Positions 10,281 to 17,133 of a stretch of DNA of 64,000 nt are shown here, piece by piece. The stretch covers positions 1,283,115 to 1,347,114 of the forward strand of contig NZ_CP132480.1 of the NCBI RefSeq assembly GCF_030770395.1, read 5' to 3'. The first letter of the stretch is position 1. Each line of letters begins with the position of its first letter. Source of the stretch: Telluria beijingensis. Lineage in GTDB: Bacteria; Pseudomonadota; Gammaproteobacteria; Burkholderiales; Burkholderiaceae_D. A program made the position numbers and the translations under genes. Under the pieces are notes generated by a model, which worked only from the letters and a program-made list of their open reading frames with translations, was not told where the DNA came from and did not search any database.

Positions 10281-11078
10281 ATGACGACCGTAGCCGCGAT
10301 CCAGATGGTGTCCACCCCGCAGGTATCCGACAACCTGGCCACCGTGCGCCGCCTGGTGGCCGAGGCCGCCGGCCGCAGCGCCACGCTGGTGGCCTTGCCG
10401 GAATACTGGCCGATCATGGGCATGAGCGATGCGGACAAGGTCGCGCACGCCGAGGCGCCGGGCAGCGGGCCGATCCAGGATTGCATGGCGCAACTGGCGC
10501 GCGAGCACGGCGTCTGGCTGGTGGGCGGCACGCTGCCGATGGTCTCGCCCGAGGCTGGCAAGGTGCTCAACACCACGCTGGTCTACGACCCGCAGGGCCA
10601 GTCGATGAGCCGCTACGACAAGATCCACCTGTTCGGCTTCAACAAGGGCGCCGAATCGTATGACGAGGCGCGCACCATCGTGCCGGGCGAGACGGTGGGC
10701 GTGTTCGACGCGCCGTTCGGCCGGGTCGGCCTGTCGGTGTGCTACGACCTGCGCTTCCCAGAGCTCTACCGTGCGATGGGTGAGTGCGTCTTGAATATCG
10801 TGCCGGCCGCCTTCACCCACACCACCGGACGCGCGCACTGGGAAGTGCTGCTGCGCGCGCGTGCGATCGAGAACCAGTGCTATGTGCTGGCCGCGGCCCA
10901 GGGTGGGCTGCATGTCAATGGCCGCCGCACCTATGGCCACAGCATGCTGGTCGACCCCTGGGGCGAAGTCAAGGCGGTGCTGCCGGAAGGCGAGGGCGTG
11001 ATCGTCGGCGAACTCGACCCGGGTTACCTGGCGGGTGTGCGCGAGAGCTTGCCGGCATTGCGTCACCGCAAGATGTAA
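10281..11078 (+). CDS. Carbon-nitrogen hydrolase, Nit-type (deaminated glutathione amidase-like)
   Basis: A 265-aa nitrilase-superfamily enzyme with the catalytic triad in place: Glu41 (LPEYWP), Lys114 (YDKIHLFG) and Cys154 ([13 protein letters not shown]). The [11 protein letters not shown] context and length fit the Nit1/Nit2 branch, whose members hydrolyse deaminated glutathione (a side product of transaminases) or omega-amides of keto acids. No signal peptide, so cytoplasmic. It starts 1 nt after yhdP and is followed by tldD after about 90 nt, so it is translated from the same operon. Exact substrate is inferred from family membership only; a general amidase role is the main alternative. 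Confidence 0.88.
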
Positions 11079-11170
11079 GCCGTGGCGGCGAGACCGGGCG
11101 CGTTCGCGTCCGGTATGAAAAAACTGGATATGGCACAATGACTTATCCCCATGAAAGACCAAACGCAACC

Positions 11171-12631
11171 ATGACTCCATTCGAACCGAATCTTTCCTCC
11201 ATCGCCGTCGCGCGCGACGTGCTGTTGACGCCTTTCGGCCTCGACGAGGGCAAGCTGCTGCGCGCGCTGGGGACGATGTTCACGCACAAGGTCGACTATG
11301 CCGACCTGTATTTCCAGTTCACCAAGAGCGAAGGCTGGAGCCTGGAAGAAGGCATCGTCAAGACCGGCAGCTTCTCGATCGACCAGGGCGTCGGCGTGCG
11401 CGCCATCTCGGGCGACAAGACGGCGTTTTCGTATTCCGACGAGATCTCGGAGCGCGCCCTGCTGGACGCCGCCAGCGCCACGCGCACCATCGCGCGCGCC
11501 GGCGCCGGCCGCATCAAGGTCGCCGGCAGCACGCTGCCGACCGGCGGCCGTTCGCTGTACCTGCCCAACGACCCGCTGGCCTCGCTCGACGCGACCGCGA
11601 AGGTGAAACTGCTCGAGCGCGTGGAAAAAATGGCGCGCGCCAAGGATCCGCGCGTGGTCCAGGTGATGGCCGGCCTGGCCGGCGAATACGATGTGGTGCT
11701 GGTGGTGCGGAGCGACGGCGTGCTGGCGGCCGACATCCGGCCGCTGGTGCGGGTGTCGGTGACCGTGATCGCCGAGCAGAACGGCCGGCGCGAAGTCGGT
11801 TCGTCCGGCGGCGGCGGGCGCTACGACTATGCTTATTTCAGCGACGAGGTGCTGGACCGCTACGCCACCGAGGCCGTGAAATCGGCCTGCGTCAACCTGG
11901 AAGCGCGGCCGGCGCCGGCTGGCCCGATGACCATCGTGCTCGGACCGGGCTGGCCCGGCGTGCTGCTGCACGAGGCGGTCGGCCATGGCCTGGAGGGCGA
12001 CTTCAACCGCAAGGGCTCGTCCTCGTATGCCGGCATGATCGGCCAGCGCGTGGCGGCCAAGGGCGTGACCGTGGTCGACGACGGCACCCTGCAAGACCGC
12101 CGAGGCTCGCTGAACATGGACGACGAGGGCAATCCAACCCAGTGCACGACCCTGATCGAGGACGGCATCCTGAAAGGCTATATCCAGGACACGATGAATG
12201 CGCGCCTGATGAAGATGCCGATCACCGGCAATGCGCGCCGCGAATCGTTCGCTCACCTGCCGATGCCGCGCATGACCAATACCTATATGCTGGGCGGCGA
12301 CAAGGACCCGCAAGAAATCCTCGCCTCGGTCAAGAACGGCCTGTACGCGGCGAACTTCGGCGGCGGCCAGGTCGATATCACCAACGGCAAGTTCGTGTTC
12401 TCGGCCAGCGAGGCCTATATGATCGAGGACGGCAAGATCACCTATCCGGTGAAGGGCGCGACCCTGATCGGCAACGGCCCGGACGTGATGAACCGCATCT
12501 CGATGATCGGCAACGACATGCGCCTGGATTCGGGCGTGGGCGTGTGCGGCAAGGAAGGGCAGAGCGTGCCGGTAGGTGTTGGCCAGCCAACCCTGCGCAT
12601 CGATGGGGTGACGGTGGGCGGTACGGCCTGA
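11171..12631 (+). CDS. tldD: Metalloprotease TldD
   Basis: TldD, catalytic zinc subunit of the TldD/TldE (PmbA) heterodimer, which trims unfolded peptides and matures microcin B17 and other modified peptides in species that make them. The 486-aa protein has the HExxxH zinc motif ([11 protein letters not shown], His267 to His272) and the conserved C-terminal GVCGKEGQ and [10 protein letters not shown](I) stretches; it is colinear with E. coli TldD. The start is placed at ATG 11171 (MTPFEPNL); an in-frame ATG at 11138 would add 11 residues, and the much longer open frame to 10784 lies inside the amidase gene and is not believed. No pmbA/tldE is in the window; the partner is usually encoded elsewhere. 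Confidence 0.95.
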
Positions 12632-12745: not shown

Positions 12746-15619
12746 TCAGAACGAATACTTCGCCCCCAGCGTAAAGTACCGCCCGATCGCCCCATAGTAA
12801 TCGAGCGGGTTGTACGACACCGCCCCATACGTCAGCGGATCGAGCGGCGCCTGCCTGTCGAACACGTTCTGGATCGAGCCATAGATTTCCCAGCGCGGCT
12901 GCGGCTTCCAGCGCAGCACCAGGTCGACCGTGGTGAACGAGGCCAGTTCGCAATCGCTTGGCGCGTCGTCACCATTGGCGAAGTGGCTGGCGCAGCCTTC
13001 GGGATCGTCCTTGAAGAAGGTGTTGTCGATCGGCCCGCGGTAGTTGACATTGGCCGACAGGCGCCAGTTGGCGCGGTCCCAGGTGGCGCGCAGGTTGACC
13101 TTGTGGTCCGGCGTGCCCATGCAGTTGCTGACGTCGCAGTTGCCGTGGGTGCCGGCGTATTCGCGCGTGGTGCCGTCCTGCTCGGTGCGCTTCCACTTGT
13201 CGAGGTAGGTGTACTTGGCGTCGAAGGTCAGCGTGCCCCAGCCGCTCGGCAGGCCGAAGCTCTGGCGCGCGTCGAGGTCGATGCCGCGCACCTCGGTCTC
13301 GGCCGAATTCACATAGCGCGCCAGCACCGCCGTGATGGCGCCCGGGTCGCCCGGGATCGCCGGGTCGGCCGTGCTCGGATCGCGCGCCACGCTGCCGGTG
13401 GCGATCGCGCTGTCGATCTGCTCCTGGTTGATCTCGTTCTTGCGCTTGATCTGCCAGAAGTCGAGCGAGAAGCTGGTGCGCGGCAGCGGGTCCCAGATCA
13501 GGCCCACGTTCCAGCTCTTCGAGCGTTCCGGGCTCAGGTCCGGGTTGGGCGAGGTGATCACCGCCACCGAGGCCGGGTTGCAGGCGCTTTCCACGCCCAG
13601 CGCGCAGCGCACCGGATCGTCGGCGTTGGCAAACGCCGCCAGCCCGCCTTCGCCGTTCTCGGCCGGGCTCGGCGCGCGGAAGCCCTTGGCCCAGGTGGCG
13701 CGCAGCGCCAGGTCGCGCCGCGGGTTCCACTTGACCCCGAACTTCGGCGTCCAGGCGTCGCCCACGTCGGTGAAGTGGTCGTAGCGCATGGCGCCGGTGA
13801 GCTCGACCCCGATCCAGACCGGGGCCAGCACCTCGCCGTACAGCGCGGTGACGTTGCGCTGGCCGTCGTAGGCCGAGTAGCCGAGGCCGATGATGTTGCC
13901 GCGTTCGGTGCCGGCGGTCGGGTCCAGCCGGGCCGACTCGTGGCGGTGCTCGAAGCCCAGCGCCACGCCCACCGCGCCGCCGGCCAGCTTGCCGATCTCG
14001 CGCGAGGCCTTGAAGTCGATCTGCGCGATCTCGGTCTCGGCATCGTTCGAGATGGTCGGCGACAGGGCGGCATACACCCCCGGCGCATTCAGGCCCGCGT
14101 TCTCGGCGATGCGCCAGTAAGTGCCGGGCGGCAGCGCGCGGTAGCCGGGATTGGCCTGGGCCGCCGCCACGTTGGCGGGCGACGGATCGAGCAGGGCGAA
14201 GGTGGCGTCGCGCTGCAGGTAGCCGCGGCGGTCGTTGTCGACCTTGCTGCGCGAATACAGCAGCGAGGTATCCCAGTCCCATGCGCCATGGGTGCCGCGC
14301 GCACCGAACAGCGCGCGCACGAAGTTCGACGCGATGTCGGATTCGCGCGGGCCGACGTCGACCGGCAGGTAGCGCAGCCGCGCCGCGCTGCCGAAATACG
14401 GGTTGTCGGGGTGTTCGGCGCCGAACTGGACGCCGGCATTGCTGACCGGGCCACCGGGGTAGCCGACGCTGCCGGCGAGCGGGTTCGGGGTGGTGCTGGA
14501 GCGCGCCAGGCTGTTGTACAGATTGAGCTCGGCATAGGCTTCGGTATTGCCCTGCAGCTTGAGCGTGCCGCGGCTGTACAGCGACAGGTTCTCGCTGTCG
14601 GGCTGGATCTGGTTGTACAGGAAGGATGCGTCGACCACGCAGCCGCCGCCCGGATCTCCCTGCGGGTGGTCGGTGAAGTTGGCGCAGGCGGCGCCGGGGA
14701 AGGTGCGCGTGAAGCCGGGCCCGGCCAGGGTGCCGCGGTTGTAGTAGTTCAGGGTGGCGGGGTCGCGCACGTTGCCGTTGATGGCATTGCCGGACTGGTT
14801 GTTGCCGGGGATGGCGCCGGTGCCGCCGAAGCCCTGCTGGGCCGAATAGCCCCACGGCCGCAGGTCGACCTTGCCGATGTAGTCGCGGTTGCCGCGGTCG
14901 CGGTACCAGATCTCTTGCGTGTGCTTGTACTCGACGTTGAACAGCACATTGTAGCGGTCGGTCTCGAGGTCGCCGAAGCCCCAGGCCACGGCCAGGTTGT
15001 GCTGCTGGCCGTCGCCCGCCTCGCCGGTGCCGATCAGCGCGCGCGCGCTGCTGCCCTGGAAGTCGCGGCGCAGGATGATGTTGACCACGCCGGCGATCGC
15101 ATCCGATCCGTAGATGGCCGAGGCGCCGTCCTTGAGGATCTCGATGCGCTCGACGGCGTCGGTCGGGATCACGTTGAGGTCGGCGAACACCTTCTGGCCA
15201 TCGTCGGCCAGGCCGTAGGGCGCCATGCGGCGGCCATTGAGCAGCACCAGGGTCGAGGCGGTGCCCAGGCCGCGCAGCGAGATGCCGGACGCGCCGGCCG
15301 CGAAGCCGCTGCCGAAGGTCATCGGCACCGAGCCCTGGTTGTCGACCGCCAGCGTCTGCAGCAGTTCGGCGACCGTGGTCTTGCCCGAGCGCTCGATGTC
15401 GTTGCGGTTGACGGTGAGCACGCTGGACGCGGTCTCGGCCTGGGCGCGGCGGATGTTCGAGCCGGTGATCTCGACCCGGGCCACGGGCGCCGGGGCGGCC
15501 TCTTGCGCCAGCGCGGGGGAGGGGATGGCCAGCAGCACGGGGCCGGCCAGCGCCAGGCCGGCCGCGCCGCCGCCGGCGAACAGGCGGCGGACGGAACGGG
15601 AAAGCAGGGTTTCAGTCAT
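12746..15619 (-). CDS. TonB-dependent outer membrane receptor
   Basis: A complete 957-aa TonB-dependent receptor. The start is the ATG at 15617-15619, preceded by a good GAAGGAG ribosome site; the open frame continues 60 codons further upstream but without such a site. A signal peptide (about 1-40, ending PALAQ) precedes VEITGSNIRR, a plug domain with LVLLNGRRMAPYG and RIEILKDGASAIYGSDAIAGV, and a 22-strand type barrel ending in a terminal Phe (GAKYSF), the usual outer-membrane assembly signal. Substrate unknown. It is convergent with tldD and divergent from the aroG attenuator; a 10-bp inverted repeat in its upstream region may be its operator. Confidence 0.95.
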   Translation of the reverse strand: MTETLLSRSVRRLFAGGGAAGLALAGPVLLAIPSPALAQEAAPAPVARVEITGSNIRRAQAETASSVLTVNRNDIERSGKTTVAELLQTLAVDNQGSVPMTFGSGFAAGASGISLRGLGTASTLVLLNGRRMAPYGLADDGQKVFADLNVIPTDAVERIEILKDGASAIYGSDAIAGVVNIILRRDFQGSSARALIGTGEAGDGQQHNLAVAWGFGDLETDRYNVLFNVEYKHTQEIWYRDRGNRDYIGKVDLRPWGYSAQQGFGGTGAIPGNNQSGNAINGNVRDPATLNYYNRGTLAGPGFTRTFPGAACANFTDHPQGDPGGGCVVDASFLYNQIQPDSENLSLYSRGTLKLQGNTEAYAELNLYNSLARSSTTPNPLAGSVGYPGGPVSNAGVQFGAEHPDNPYFGSAARLRYLPVDVGPRESDIASNFVRALFGARGTHGAWDWDTSLLYSRSKVDNDRRGYLQRDATFALLDPSPANVAAAQANPGYRALPPGTYWRIAENAGLNAPGVYAALSPTISNDAETEIAQIDFKASREIGKLAGGAVGVALGFEHRHESARLDPTAGTERGNIIGLGYSAYDGQRNVTALYGEVLAPVWIGVELTGAMRYDHFTDVGDAWTPKFGVKWNPRRDLALRATWAKGFRAPSPAENGEGGLAAFANADDPVRCALGVESACNPASVAVITSPNPDLSPERSKSWNVGLIWDPLPRTSFSLDFWQIKRKNEINQEQIDSAIATGSVARDPSTADPAIPGDPGAITAVLARYVNSAETEVRGIDLDARQSFGLPSGWGTLTFDAKYTYLDKWKRTEQDGTTREYAGTHGNCDVSNCMGTPDHKVNLRATWDRANWRLSANVNYRGPIDNTFFKDDPEGCASHFANGDDAPSDCELASFTTVDLVLRWKPQPRWEIYGSIQNVFDRQAPLDPLTYGAVSYNPLDYYGAIGRYFTLGAKYSF

Positions 15620-15671
15620 GGTAGAGACTCCTTCGATGGGATGGGTACCGCGCTCGGGATCTGAACCGACT

Positions 15672-15751
15672 GTTGCATTGACCTGCGTTGAGAAGCTGAT
15701 CCAGCGCAAAGCGCCCGTGAAGGGGATATGTAAGCGTGCGTTCAATGCAAC
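15672..15751. promoter_or_regulatory. Spaced 10-bp inverted repeat upstream of receptor 2
   Basis: GTTGCATTGA (15672-15681) and its exact complement TCAATGCAAC (15742-15751) flank about 60 nt within the 5' region of receptor 2, 53 to 132 nt before its start codon. Two arms six turns apart could be a DNA-looping operator pair or a long-range RNA stem in the receptor leader. No regulator gene is next to it. Seen directly; role inferred. Confidence 0.4.
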
Positions 15752-15792
15752 CGATTGTTGTCTGTACAAGCGGGGTTTGACGGACAAAGGAC

Positions 15793-15822
15793 TTGCCAAT
15801 CTTCATGTCTTGTTGTTATAGT
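15793..15822 (+). promoter_or_regulatory. Sigma-70 promoter of the aroG leader
   Basis: TTGCCA (15793-15798), an 18-bp spacer and TATAGT (15817-15822) form a convincing vegetative promoter. Transcription would begin near 15829, about 20 nt before the leader peptide start at 15849 and about 200 nt before the DAHP synthase gene. This spacing is what an attenuated biosynthetic gene needs. Confidence 0.65.
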
Positions 15823-15848
15823 CAATTCGACCAACACACGGACGATCC

Positions 15849-15929
15849 ATGCGCCATTTCTTCTTTACCCGCTTTTACTTTAGCCATTCCAGCCTCAGGC
15901 GGTGGAGTAGCGGCGGGTACGCGGAGTAA
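15849..15929 (+). CDS. Phe-rich leader peptide of the DAHP synthase gene
   Basis: A 26-codon frame (ATG 15849 to TAA 15929) reading MRHFFFTRFYFSHSS and then 11 further residues ending YAE. It holds five Phe codons, three of them consecutive, and a Tyr within residues 4-11 (15858-15881). It lies between a sigma-70 promoter and an intrinsic terminator, directly upstream of a first-step aromatic biosynthesis gene. This is the arrangement of classical leader peptides such as pheL. The ribosome would sense charged tRNA-Phe: stalling in the Phe run keeps the downstream gene on. The Shine-Dalgarno is weak (GGA about 6 nt upstream). Expression is not proven; the case rests on composition, placement and the matching RNA pairings. 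Confidence 0.72.
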   Translation: MRHFFFTRFYFSHSSLRRWSSGGYAE

Positions 15930-15972
15930 ACGTCCCGGCAGCAACCAGACAAACCGCCAGCGATGGCGGTTT
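15898..15972 (+). promoter_or_regulatory. Phenylalanine attenuator (antiterminator/terminator pair)
   Basis: GGCGGT (15898-15903), inside the leader-peptide frame 17 nt after the last Phe codon, is complementary to ACCGCC (15953-15958), which is the 5' arm of the terminator. If a ribosome stalls at the Phe codons the first segment is free to pair and the terminator cannot form; if the ribosome runs to the stop codon at 15927 it covers the segment and the terminator forms. A second G-rich segment GGCGG at 15912-15916 could also pair. Structure seen; mechanism by analogy with enterobacterial phe/trp/his attenuators. Confidence 0.62.
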
Positions 15973-15977
15973 TTTTA
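15951..15977 (+). terminator. Intrinsic terminator in the aroG leader
   Basis: A 9-bp stem AAACCGCCA / TGGCGGTTT (15951-15959 with 15964-15972), GCGA tetraloop, followed by an uninterrupted T run to 15976. It lies 52 nt before the DAHP synthase start, so it would end transcription ahead of the gene unless prevented. Confidence 0.85.
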
Positions 15978-16028
15978 TTTCCAGGCTCGATACCAGCCAG
16001 CACAGAACAGCAGAAAAGGGAGTCCAGC

Positions 16029-17087
16029 ATGCCCCGCACCGACGATTTACGTATCCGTGAAATGAAGGAATTGACGCCGCCCTCGCACCTGATCCGCGAG
16101 TTCCCGGTAACGCCCCAGGCCGAGCAGACGGCAAGCGGCGCGCGCATCGACCTGCACCGCATCCTGCACGGCCAGGACGACCGCCTGATGGTGGTGATCG
16201 GACCGTGCTCGATCCACGATCCGAAGGCCGCGATCGAGTACGCGCGCAGGCTGGTCAAGGAGCGCCAGCGCTTCGCCGGCGAACTCGAGATCGTGATGCG
16301 GGTGTACTTCGAGAAGCCGCGCACCACGGTCGGCTGGAAGGGCCTGATCAACGACCCGTACATGGACAACAGCTTCCGCATCAACGACGGCTTGCGCATG
16401 GCGCGCGAGCTGCTGCGCGACATCAACGAGATGGGCTTGCCGGCCGGGACCGAATTCCTCGACGTGATCAGCCCGCAGTACATCGCCGACCTGGTCAGCT
16501 GGGGCGCAATCGGCGCCCGCACCACCGAATCGCAGGTGCACCGCGAGCTGGCTTCGGGGCTGTCGTGCCCGGTCGGCTTCAAGAACGGCACCGACGGCAA
16601 TATCAAGATCGCGACCGAGGCCATCAAGGCCGCCTCGCAGCCGCACCATTTCCTGTCGGTGACCAAGGGCGGCCACTCGGCCATCGTGTCGACCTCGGGC
16701 AACGAGGATTGCCACATCATCCTGCGCGGCGGCAAGGCTCCGAACTACGATGCTGCCAGCGTCGAGGACGCCTGCAAGCAGATCGCAGCGCTGGGCCTGG
16801 CCAGCCGCCTGATGATCGACGCGTCGCACGCGAACAGTTCCAAGAAGCCGGAAAACCAGGTGCCGGTGTGCGCCGACATCGCGGCCCAGATCGCGGGCGG
16901 CGACGACCGCATCGTCGGCGTGATGATCGAGTCGCACCTGGTCGCCGGACGGCAAGACCTGGTGCCGGGCAAGGAGCTGACCTATGGCCAGTCGGTGACC
17001 GATGGCTGCATCGACTGGGACACCAGCGTCGGGGTACTGGAAGGCCTGGCGGCCGCGGTGCGTCAGCGCCGCCTGCGCCAGGAATAA
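16029..17087 (+). CDS. aroG: 3-deoxy-7-phosphoheptulonate (DAHP) synthase, class I
   Basis: Catalyses the first step of the shikimate pathway, joining phosphoenolpyruvate and erythrose 4-phosphate. The 352-aa protein is a full-length AroFGH-type enzyme. The four metal ligands of E. coli AroG (Cys61, His268, Glu302, Asp326) appear here at Cys60 (GPCSIHD), His267 (DASHANSSKK), Glu301 (MIESHL) and Asp325 (VTDGC), a constant offset of one. Start ATG 16029 has an AAGGGAG site; an upstream in-frame ATG at 15963 falls inside the terminator hairpin and is rejected. The Phe-rich leader ahead of it suggests the phenylalanine-controlled isozyme, hence the symbol; the isozyme assignment is inference, the enzyme class is not in doubt. 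Confidence 0.95.
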   Translation: MPRTDDLRIREMKELTPPSHLIREFPVTPQAEQTASGARIDLHRILHGQDDRLMVVIGPCSIHDPKAAIEYARRLVKERQRFAGELEIVMRVYFEKPRTTVGWKGLINDPYMDNSFRINDGLRMARELLRDINEMGLPAGTEFLDVISPQYIADLVSWGAIGARTTESQVHRELASGLSCPVGFKNGTDGNIKIATEAIKAASQPHHFLSVTKGGHSAIVSTSGNEDCHIILRGGKAPNYDAASVEDACKQIAALGLASRLMIDASHANSSKKPENQVPVCADIAAQIAGGDDRIVGVMIESHLVAGRQDLVPGKELTYGQSVTDGCIDWDTSVGVLEGLAAAVRQRRLRQE

Positions 17088-17103: not shown

Positions 17104-17133
17104 AAGAAGGGCGCACCGCGGTGCGCCCTTCTT
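17104..17133. terminator. Bidirectional terminator between aroG and receptor 3
   Basis: A perfect 30-nt palindrome (15 nt per arm, AAGAAGGGCGCACCG and its complement) in the 63-nt gap between convergent aroG and receptor 3. A-rich start and T-rich end on each strand fit an intrinsic terminator working both ways, although the T runs are short. Confidence 0.75.

Follow-up and report, generated by a model that had tools for sequence, protein, structure and literature searches.

How is aroG, the gene for a 3-deoxy-D-arabino-heptulosonate 7-phosphate (DAHP) synthase, controlled in Telluria beijingensis? The question is raised by a stretch of 64,000 nucleotides of this genome (contig NZ_CP132480.1, positions 1,283,115 to 1,347,114), called here the window, in which aroG is preceded by a 5' leader. 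In Escherichia coli, aroG is controlled by TyrR. The host genome, a single contig of 6.0 Mb (6,017,275 bases), contains no match above the curated cut-off to HTH_50, which we take to be the TyrR-type domain (best 22.1 bits, cut-off 27). TyrR is described as confined to the gammaproteobacteria (PMC5343134). The leader in front of aroG is in all likelihood a ribosome-mediated transcription attenuator and, judging from its sequence, would very probably turn aroG up when phenylalanine is short, and perhaps when tyrosine is short too. Its parts follow one another in this order:

15793..15822, + strand: sigma-70-like promoter (-35 TTGCCA at 15793-15798, 18-nt spacer, -10 TATAGT at 15817-15822 after TGn)
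15840..15842, + strand: weak Shine-Dalgarno sequence, a GGA core before the leader ATG (read from the letters, unscored)
15849..15929, + strand: leader peptide open reading frame (ORF) MRHFFFTRFYFSHSSLRRWSSGGYAE, ATG at 15849, TAA at 15927-15929, 26 codons
15886..15894, + strand: region 1, ATTCCAGCC, the 5' arm of the 1:2 hairpin (partner 15898-15908; fold -8.0 kcal/mol)
15898..15907, + strand: region 2, GGCGGTGGAG, with core GGCGGT at 15898-15903, within the leader ORF; its partner is region 3
15951..15959, + strand: region 3 and 5' arm of the terminator, AAACCGCCA, with core ACCGCC at 15953-15958; it pairs with regions 2 and 4
15964..15976, + strand: region 4 and 3' arm of the terminator, TGGCGGTTT (15964-15972), plus the T run to 15976
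16029..17087, + strand: aroG, class I DAHP synthase of the AroG (Phe-sensitive) type, ATG at 16029, 352 amino acids

An earlier sequence-only reading had proposed a promoter, a 26-codon leader with five Phe codons, an antiterminator pairing and a terminator ahead of aroG, and every one of them lies where it had been placed. To that description are added the 1:2 hairpin, the Tyr codons and a reading frame that departs from that of most relatives and puts the stop further downstream. The promoter matches the consensus at 10 of 12 positions and is the sole promoter-like site in 15500-16200 (shuffle mean 0.1); from its start to the aroG ATG (15793-16029) there are 237 nt. A GGA stands near the same place in many relatives (by eye, uncounted). 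The Phe codons are at 15858, 15861, 15864, 15873 and 15879, three of them consecutive, and the Tyr codons at 15876 and 15918. The terminator hairpin (15951-15972) folds at -13.6 kcal/mol, with its T run at 15970-15976. The AroG protein matches NCBIfam NF006723 AroG at 587 bits (cut-off 568), and its best PDB matches are to the Phe-regulated E. coli enzyme (510 bits). Because the next long ORF upstream (about 12746-15619, TonB-receptor-like by eye) runs on the opposite strand, the terminator stands between aroG's own promoter and aroG.

From these parts we infer promoter use, ribosome stalling, a structural switch and a response to amino acids, as follows. RNA polymerase would start just past 15822, and a ribosome would follow it, translating the leader peptide. 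With charged tRNA-Phe (and probably tRNA-Tyr) plentiful, the ribosome would pass the aromatic codons and reach the end of the leader; region 2 would then be covered, or back in the 1:2 hairpin, the 3:4 terminator (15951-15976) would form and transcription would stop before aroG. With charged tRNA-Phe short, the ribosome would stall on the Phe/Tyr run (15858-15881) and cover region 1, so that region 2 (GGCGGT) would be free to pair with region 3 (ACCGCC) ahead of the synthesis of region 4. The resulting 2:3 antiterminator would block the terminator, and aroG would be transcribed.

Could the same picture arise by chance, from a T-rich stretch that happens to encode Phe and an accidental hairpin? 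The leader is the only short ORF (8-60 codons, both strands) of the 64-kb window with at least 6 Phe/Tyr per 12 residues, and also the only one with at least 5 Phe per 12; no ORF reached either threshold when the 64 kb were resampled 20 times from a first-order Markov model. When the local 528 nt alone were resampled, the run included, 0.1% reached 6 Phe/Tyr and 0.65% reached 5 Phe (n=2000). The terminator pattern CCGCC-N(2-10)-GGCGGTTTTTT has one match in the 6,017,275-base genome, and its backwards control has none. Taken alone, a generic terminator scan did not exceed chance (1 found against 0.7 expected), which speaks for a chance origin. The comparison with relatives, given next, bears on the same question.

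Conservation was analysed first within the host family, where aroG is present in 193 of the 195 genomes. The family sample consisted of 70 aroG upstream regions (30 loci returned, the window's own aroG included, and 40 adding genera) and spans 30 of 44 genera, the other 14 having none among the matches listed. A leader and a terminator precede aroG in 69 of these 70 loci and in 29 of the 30 genera; the terminator pattern located 68 of the terminators, and the one at L069 was placed by hand. The best 12 residues of the 69 leaders hold 3 Phe/Tyr in one leader, 4 in one, 5 in eight, 6 in 15, 7 in 24, 8 in 12 and 9 in eight. There are two main forms, ...FFTxYFYFSxSxPxAVE and ...RFYFYFYFSYSSPTAVEKR, and promoter-like boxes stand before 66 of the 69 (loose pattern, no control).

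A scan of named genomes, in which the nearest 80 loci were kept and some genomes overlap with the 70 family loci, gave a similar result. The closest are Massilia (AroG is 93% identical in Massilia sp. Leaf139), and the 80 include Janthinobacterium, Duganella, Rugamonas, Pseudoduganella, Collimonas, Herbaspirillum, Herminiimonas, Noviherbaspirillum, Undibacterium, Oxalicibacterium, Caballeronia, Paraburkholderia and Burkholderia. A leader of at least 5 Phe/Tyr per 12 is found in 78 of them, and 77 of these 78 also have a terminator of -8 kcal/mol or better. L224 and L239 fail the leader test, L249 is without a terminator by the rule used, and L242 passes the leader test on an apparent chance ORF. 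The sequence-only reading had suggested comparing the aroG upstream regions of many Oxalobacteraceae, and both surveys bear out its expectation of a conserved leader. The only sampled family locus without leader and terminator is L037. In this genome (L037/L224; G013, an Oxalobacteraceae metagenome-assembled genome) aroG closely follows an ORF ending RIDGITVGGTA, resembling the end of the window ORF 10784-12631, and may be read from an operon.

In the window and in L003, L182 and L062 the leader frame shifts just before GGCGGT, and in L028 and L196 it shifts differently. Such leaders end RRWSSGGYAE or similar, not AVE, and their stop lies further downstream; the RNA letters (GGCGGT) are kept and the reading frame is not. 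This pattern bears on whether the leader is instead a small functional protein, with a terminator that merely trims or insulates the transcript. Although the peptide is kept across 29 sampled genera, as such a protein might be, its length and its N- and C-terminus are variable, and in the window and a few relatives the frame changes close to the end although the letters GGCGGT do not. Moreover, a terminator placed between promoter and aroG, with the upstream long ORF running the opposite way, has no other obvious use, and we consider the small protein very improbable.

The search was then widened to 399 genomes of the order, which we take, from genus names and general taxonomy, to be Burkholderiales, the betaproteobacteria, with a covariance model of the element as query. 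Full-length matches were obtained in other families. Matches at E 0.01 occurred in 160 of the 399 genomes, a count not used as prevalence because many of them were to the terminator only. Of the full-length matches outside the family, 20 were chosen; each is found immediately ahead of an aroG homologue (64-81% identical) and contains a short ORF in which 12 residues include 5-9 Phe/Tyr, for instance MSAKFYFYFFGYLRPLADREGC. In a sample independent of the element, drawn from 30 other families, 19 of 85 upstream regions of aroG-type genes have at least 6 Phe/Tyr per 12, all 19 with a terminator; the same threshold is passed by 6 of 850 shuffled sequences and by 2 of 85 reverse strands. The figure of 19 is if anything low, because the sample excluded five genomes already known to carry the element as well as a few second copies; several regions with 4-5 Phe/Tyr and strong terminators (e.g. 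family f12) look like real leaders below the threshold. Overall, carriers were found in 13 other families of the order (11 from the 85-region sample; f29 and f39 from the 20 chosen matches), with Caballeronia and Paraburkholderia among them, and in some carrier families other members are without the element. That the element is general to the whole order was rejected, 66 of the 85 sampled regions being below threshold. Taken with the conservation in the sampled relatives and the uniqueness in window and genome, the excess over shuffles and reverse strands makes the chance origin raised above a negligible prospect.

In other orders of the class, none of 25 scored loci passed the threshold (29 loci were returned, and gene starts were placed roughly). 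One locus from another order of the class (L265, genome G592) has upstream of aroG an ORF ending FYRWYYFPKPPAEEGVRAF and a terminator of -21 kcal/mol, and falls just below the threshold. Its likeness to the order's PLAEEG leaders may be due to transfer or convergence.

Across 46 family sequences, the 1:2 helix is paired in 92% of cells, the 2:3 core in 99.6% and the terminator in 100%. A 6-nt complement of region 3 occurs upstream in 66 of 69 family leaders, against 3.0% of shuffles. Between families, region 2 reads CTGGCGG or CCGGCGG alongside CCGCCAG or CCGCCGG in region 3, the first extension position of the 2:3 helix being T-A in 18 and C-G in nine; the extension pairs are formed in 82 of 120 cases against 69.8 when permuted (p 0.0003; 40 of 43 sequences usable). 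The compensatory stem changes that the sequence-only reading had named as a test are present between families; within the family they are few, because the stems hardly vary, and in the 1:2 hairpin one of eight pairs has changes on both sides.

The placement of the ribosome was modelled on the assumption that its 3' edge lies 12 nt past the first base of the A-site codon. The test covered 109 of 112 leaders, L078, L108 and L165 being left out as they have no 5-bp core. A ribosome on the aromatic codons leaves region 2 free in all 109. When the RNA extends up to region 3, the minimum-energy fold of 107 leaders contains the 2:3 core for one or more positions of the ribosome on an aromatic codon (68 of 69 family and 39 of 40 others; no shuffled control), and in 56 it does so for every aromatic codon. 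Once it has reached the stop, the ribosome lies over region 2 in 74 of the 109 leaders (54 of 69 in the family).

A number of results weigh against the attenuator. Two family leaders have weak runs, with 3 (L065) and 4 (L034) Phe/Tyr per 12, and many families of the order are without the element at the threshold used. Within the family the 2:3 core is invariant, and therefore offers no covariation that could support or refute it; RNAalifold on the whole leader yields the terminator only, and on region 2-3 just the invariant core helix. The inner part of the antiterminator (CGGT/ACCG) is paired in only 75.8% of cells, and its 11 both-side changes all fall in one pair (shuffles give 4.7, kinship uncontrolled, and sliding by one column gives 7). 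Per-sequence support for the extended antiterminator is weak: the mean z is -0.71 (n=63), 5 of 63 reach p 0.05 or better, and the window itself has z +0.18. Twenty draws of one sequence per family give p values between 0.001 and 0.19 for the covariation between families. In leaders from other families, a 5-nt complement of region 3 occurs in 38 of 43, yet also in 17% of shuffles, and just 4 of the 43 have a 6-nt complement on the other side. The stop codon of the window's leader lies 29 nt past the start of region 2, and a ribosome there leaves region 2 uncovered, because the frame is one base off that of most relatives and the stop falls at 15927; termination would therefore rely on a re-formed 1:2 hairpin. 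Finally, once all of the leader RNA in the window has been made, the terminator state (-31.3 kcal/mol) lies 2.3 kcal/mol below the forced antiterminator (-29.0), so that the switch would depend on kinetics.

What does the leader sense? In 59 distinct family leaders Phe makes up 20.5% of residues against 12.1% expected from their own dinucleotides, Tyr 10.1% against 3.3%, and Leu 1.9% against 13.0%. The run is thus more than mere T-richness, since Phe and Tyr are enriched and Leu depleted relative to these dinucleotides. Leader Phe codons are TTT in 236 of 321 cases (69 leaders, some near-identical), against 5 of 112 in five window ORFs (starts unrefined), and in an alignment of 56 leaders anchored at TTTAGC most of the variation at the Phe/Tyr positions is between TTT and TTC or between TAT and TAC. 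The enrichment of Phe/Tyr and of TTT, with the depletion of Leu, makes Phe the most likely signal in the window.

The same codons bear on another explanation, that the switch is worked by a protein or metabolite bound to the leader RNA, with an incidental ORF. Riboswitches and protein-controlled attenuators can indeed have a terminator and an alternative pairing too, as a matter of general knowledge. Against this stand the mainly synonymous swaps at the Phe/Tyr positions, the scarcity of Leu, the folding of the alignments into the overlapping hairpins only, and the lack of an Rfam riboswitch or T-box match. Rfam 15 at the gathering cut-off gave no riboswitch, T-box or leader match in the window, and in 20 related loci one tRNA and no riboswitch or T-box. 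Relaxing the threshold to E 10 brought up nothing usable: RF01859 (Phe_leader) was tried for the window and rejected, at 15.8 bits against a cut-off of 55 (E 4.6) with mostly the terminator aligned. An incidental ORF appears to us very improbable, if marginally less so than the small protein.

A variant of the ribosome-mediated attenuator deserves more weight, namely a multivalent one in which stalling at Tyr, and in other families at Trp, also opens the switch, so that the charging of several aromatic tRNAs would be read where the common pathway begins. The sequence-only reading had named a phenylalanine attenuator, a term that may be too narrow because most relatives have a Phe+Tyr run, often with Trp added outside the family. 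The Tyr excess in the 59 family leaders argues for the variant, as do the Trp codons of 24 of the 43 leaders outside the family, each beside a Phe or Tyr (8 of 59 leaders inside). Tyr probably contributes in many relatives, and sensing of Trp outside the family is a possibility. Trp amounts to 2.8% of residues there against 1.8% expected, a mild excess to which no significance test was applied. Within the family it is below expectation (0.6% against 1.1%), and sensing of Trp there was set aside as unsupported. The run in the window, moreover, has five Phe to one Tyr, and the Phe-Tyr-Phe leader of Corynebacterium glutamicum is reported to respond to Phe and not to Tyr (PMC11802643). We hold the multivalent variant to be possible rather than probable. 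More tentative still is the general proposal that, across much of the betaproteobacteria, which would be without TyrR, a multivalent attenuator at aroG governs the first step of aromatic biosynthesis and reads the charging of Phe, Tyr and, in many families, Trp tRNAs at once, with a codon ratio tuned by lineage in the manner of ilv. The ilv leader reads several branched-chain amino acids.

Among the four aromatic genes examined in the genome (aroG, the second DAHP synthase, pheA and pheS), only aroG has a close leader of this kind. No Phe-rich leader was found in the 1.5 kb upstream of the matched domain of pheA, pheS or the second DAHP synthase, a distance beyond which operon leaders would escape, apart from one short ORF 1.5 kb before the second DAHP synthase. 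This paralogue (L002, 506367-507383) is 50% identical to AroG.

Directly after the aroG stop there is a strong inverted repeat (17104-17133) with a short T-containing tail, by eye a likely terminator, for which reason aroG looks monocistronic; the ORF that follows is on the opposite strand. Upstream, the ORF at 10784-12631, which we assume to be TldD/PmbA-like, is parted from aroG by the opposite-strand TonB-receptor-like ORF (both names by eye). In G013 and G248 (L121) the end of a TldD-like ORF is no more than 0.35 kb upstream of aroG, and the TonB-receptor-like ORF could be an insertion into an older neighbourhood.

The leader offers a concrete answer to how betaproteobacteria without TyrR may control the entry of carbon into the shikimate pathway. 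It is an RNA element that an Rfam search does not recognise and that can now be annotated in many genomes, and the leader letters to alter in strains engineered for aromatic products are now marked. In the open literature searched, which leaves supplementary lists and several key papers outside its coverage, there is no report of an aroG leader element in betaproteobacteria. The words aroG and aroF are absent from the main text of PMC2965389, and Phe attenuators are outside the treatment in the text available of PMC3766115. The scan in PMC8632094 took in two betaproteobacterial genomes, Polynucleobacter necessarius and Beta proteobacterium CB, and its supplementary list of upstream ORFs (uORFs) might hold an aroG leader.

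Among the closest known systems are the enterobacterial leaders of pheL-pheA and pheST (RF01859), which likewise combine a Phe-rich peptide, alternative hairpins and a terminator. In those leaders the gene controlled is pheA or pheST and not aroG, and the RF01859 model scores well below its cut-off here, as described above. With TyrR of E. coli the element has in common the step controlled, although TyrR is a DNA-binding repressor. In other Proteobacteria, attenuation of DAHP synthase or aromatic operons has been predicted at Vibrio aroA-I-alpha-Y > tyrA and the Bordetella pheA operon (PMC1173090) and at Shewanella aroF (PMC2659441), and we read Vibrio aroA-I-alpha-Y as a Tyr-type DAHP synthase. 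These differ in gene or lineage, and the tyrA-operon table passage of PMC1173090 is without a betaproteobacterial aroG.

The sequence-only reading had suggested that Phe attenuation at the entry to the aromatic pathway in this lineage would be a distinct control strategy; Phe attenuation of DAHP synthase has precedents in C. glutamicum (PMC11802643, PMC4046766) and Acholeplasma (PMC8632094) and predicted ones in Vibrio (PMC1173090). Attenuation at E. coli aroF was suggested as early as 1980, as cited in PMC8632094. Two candidate uORFs with Phe and Tyr codons at shikimate genes (PMC6429828) resemble the aroG leader by description in being predicted regulators with both residues; unlike it, they come from a study of five genomes, those of an alphaproteobacterium, Clostridium, Thermovirga, Arcobacter and a gammaproteobacterial endosymbiont. 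Also alike by description is uORFC-13-1 at Acholeplasma aroF, a predicted element in which a uORF has one or more Phe codons within a U run and is followed by an intrinsic terminator, all ahead of a DAHP synthase gene. In contrast to the aroG leader, it is known from Acholeplasma and environmental sequences only, with 24 representatives (PMC8632094).

A further close system is aroR of C. glutamicum, a leader with Phe-Tyr-Phe before aroF (PMC4046766, PMC3890552), where aroF transcription is reported to rise under Phe limitation with no response to Tyr (PMC11802643). In Actinobacteria, according to the text available of PMC1262725, no element of this kind was found at operons for Phe or Tyr. Like the aroG leader, aroR encodes an aromatic leader peptide before a DAHP synthase gene; unlike it, it is actinobacterial and has a shorter aromatic run, a distinction drawn by description only. 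The likeness to this FYF leader raises the question of whether aromatic attenuation of DAHP synthase has arisen more than once.

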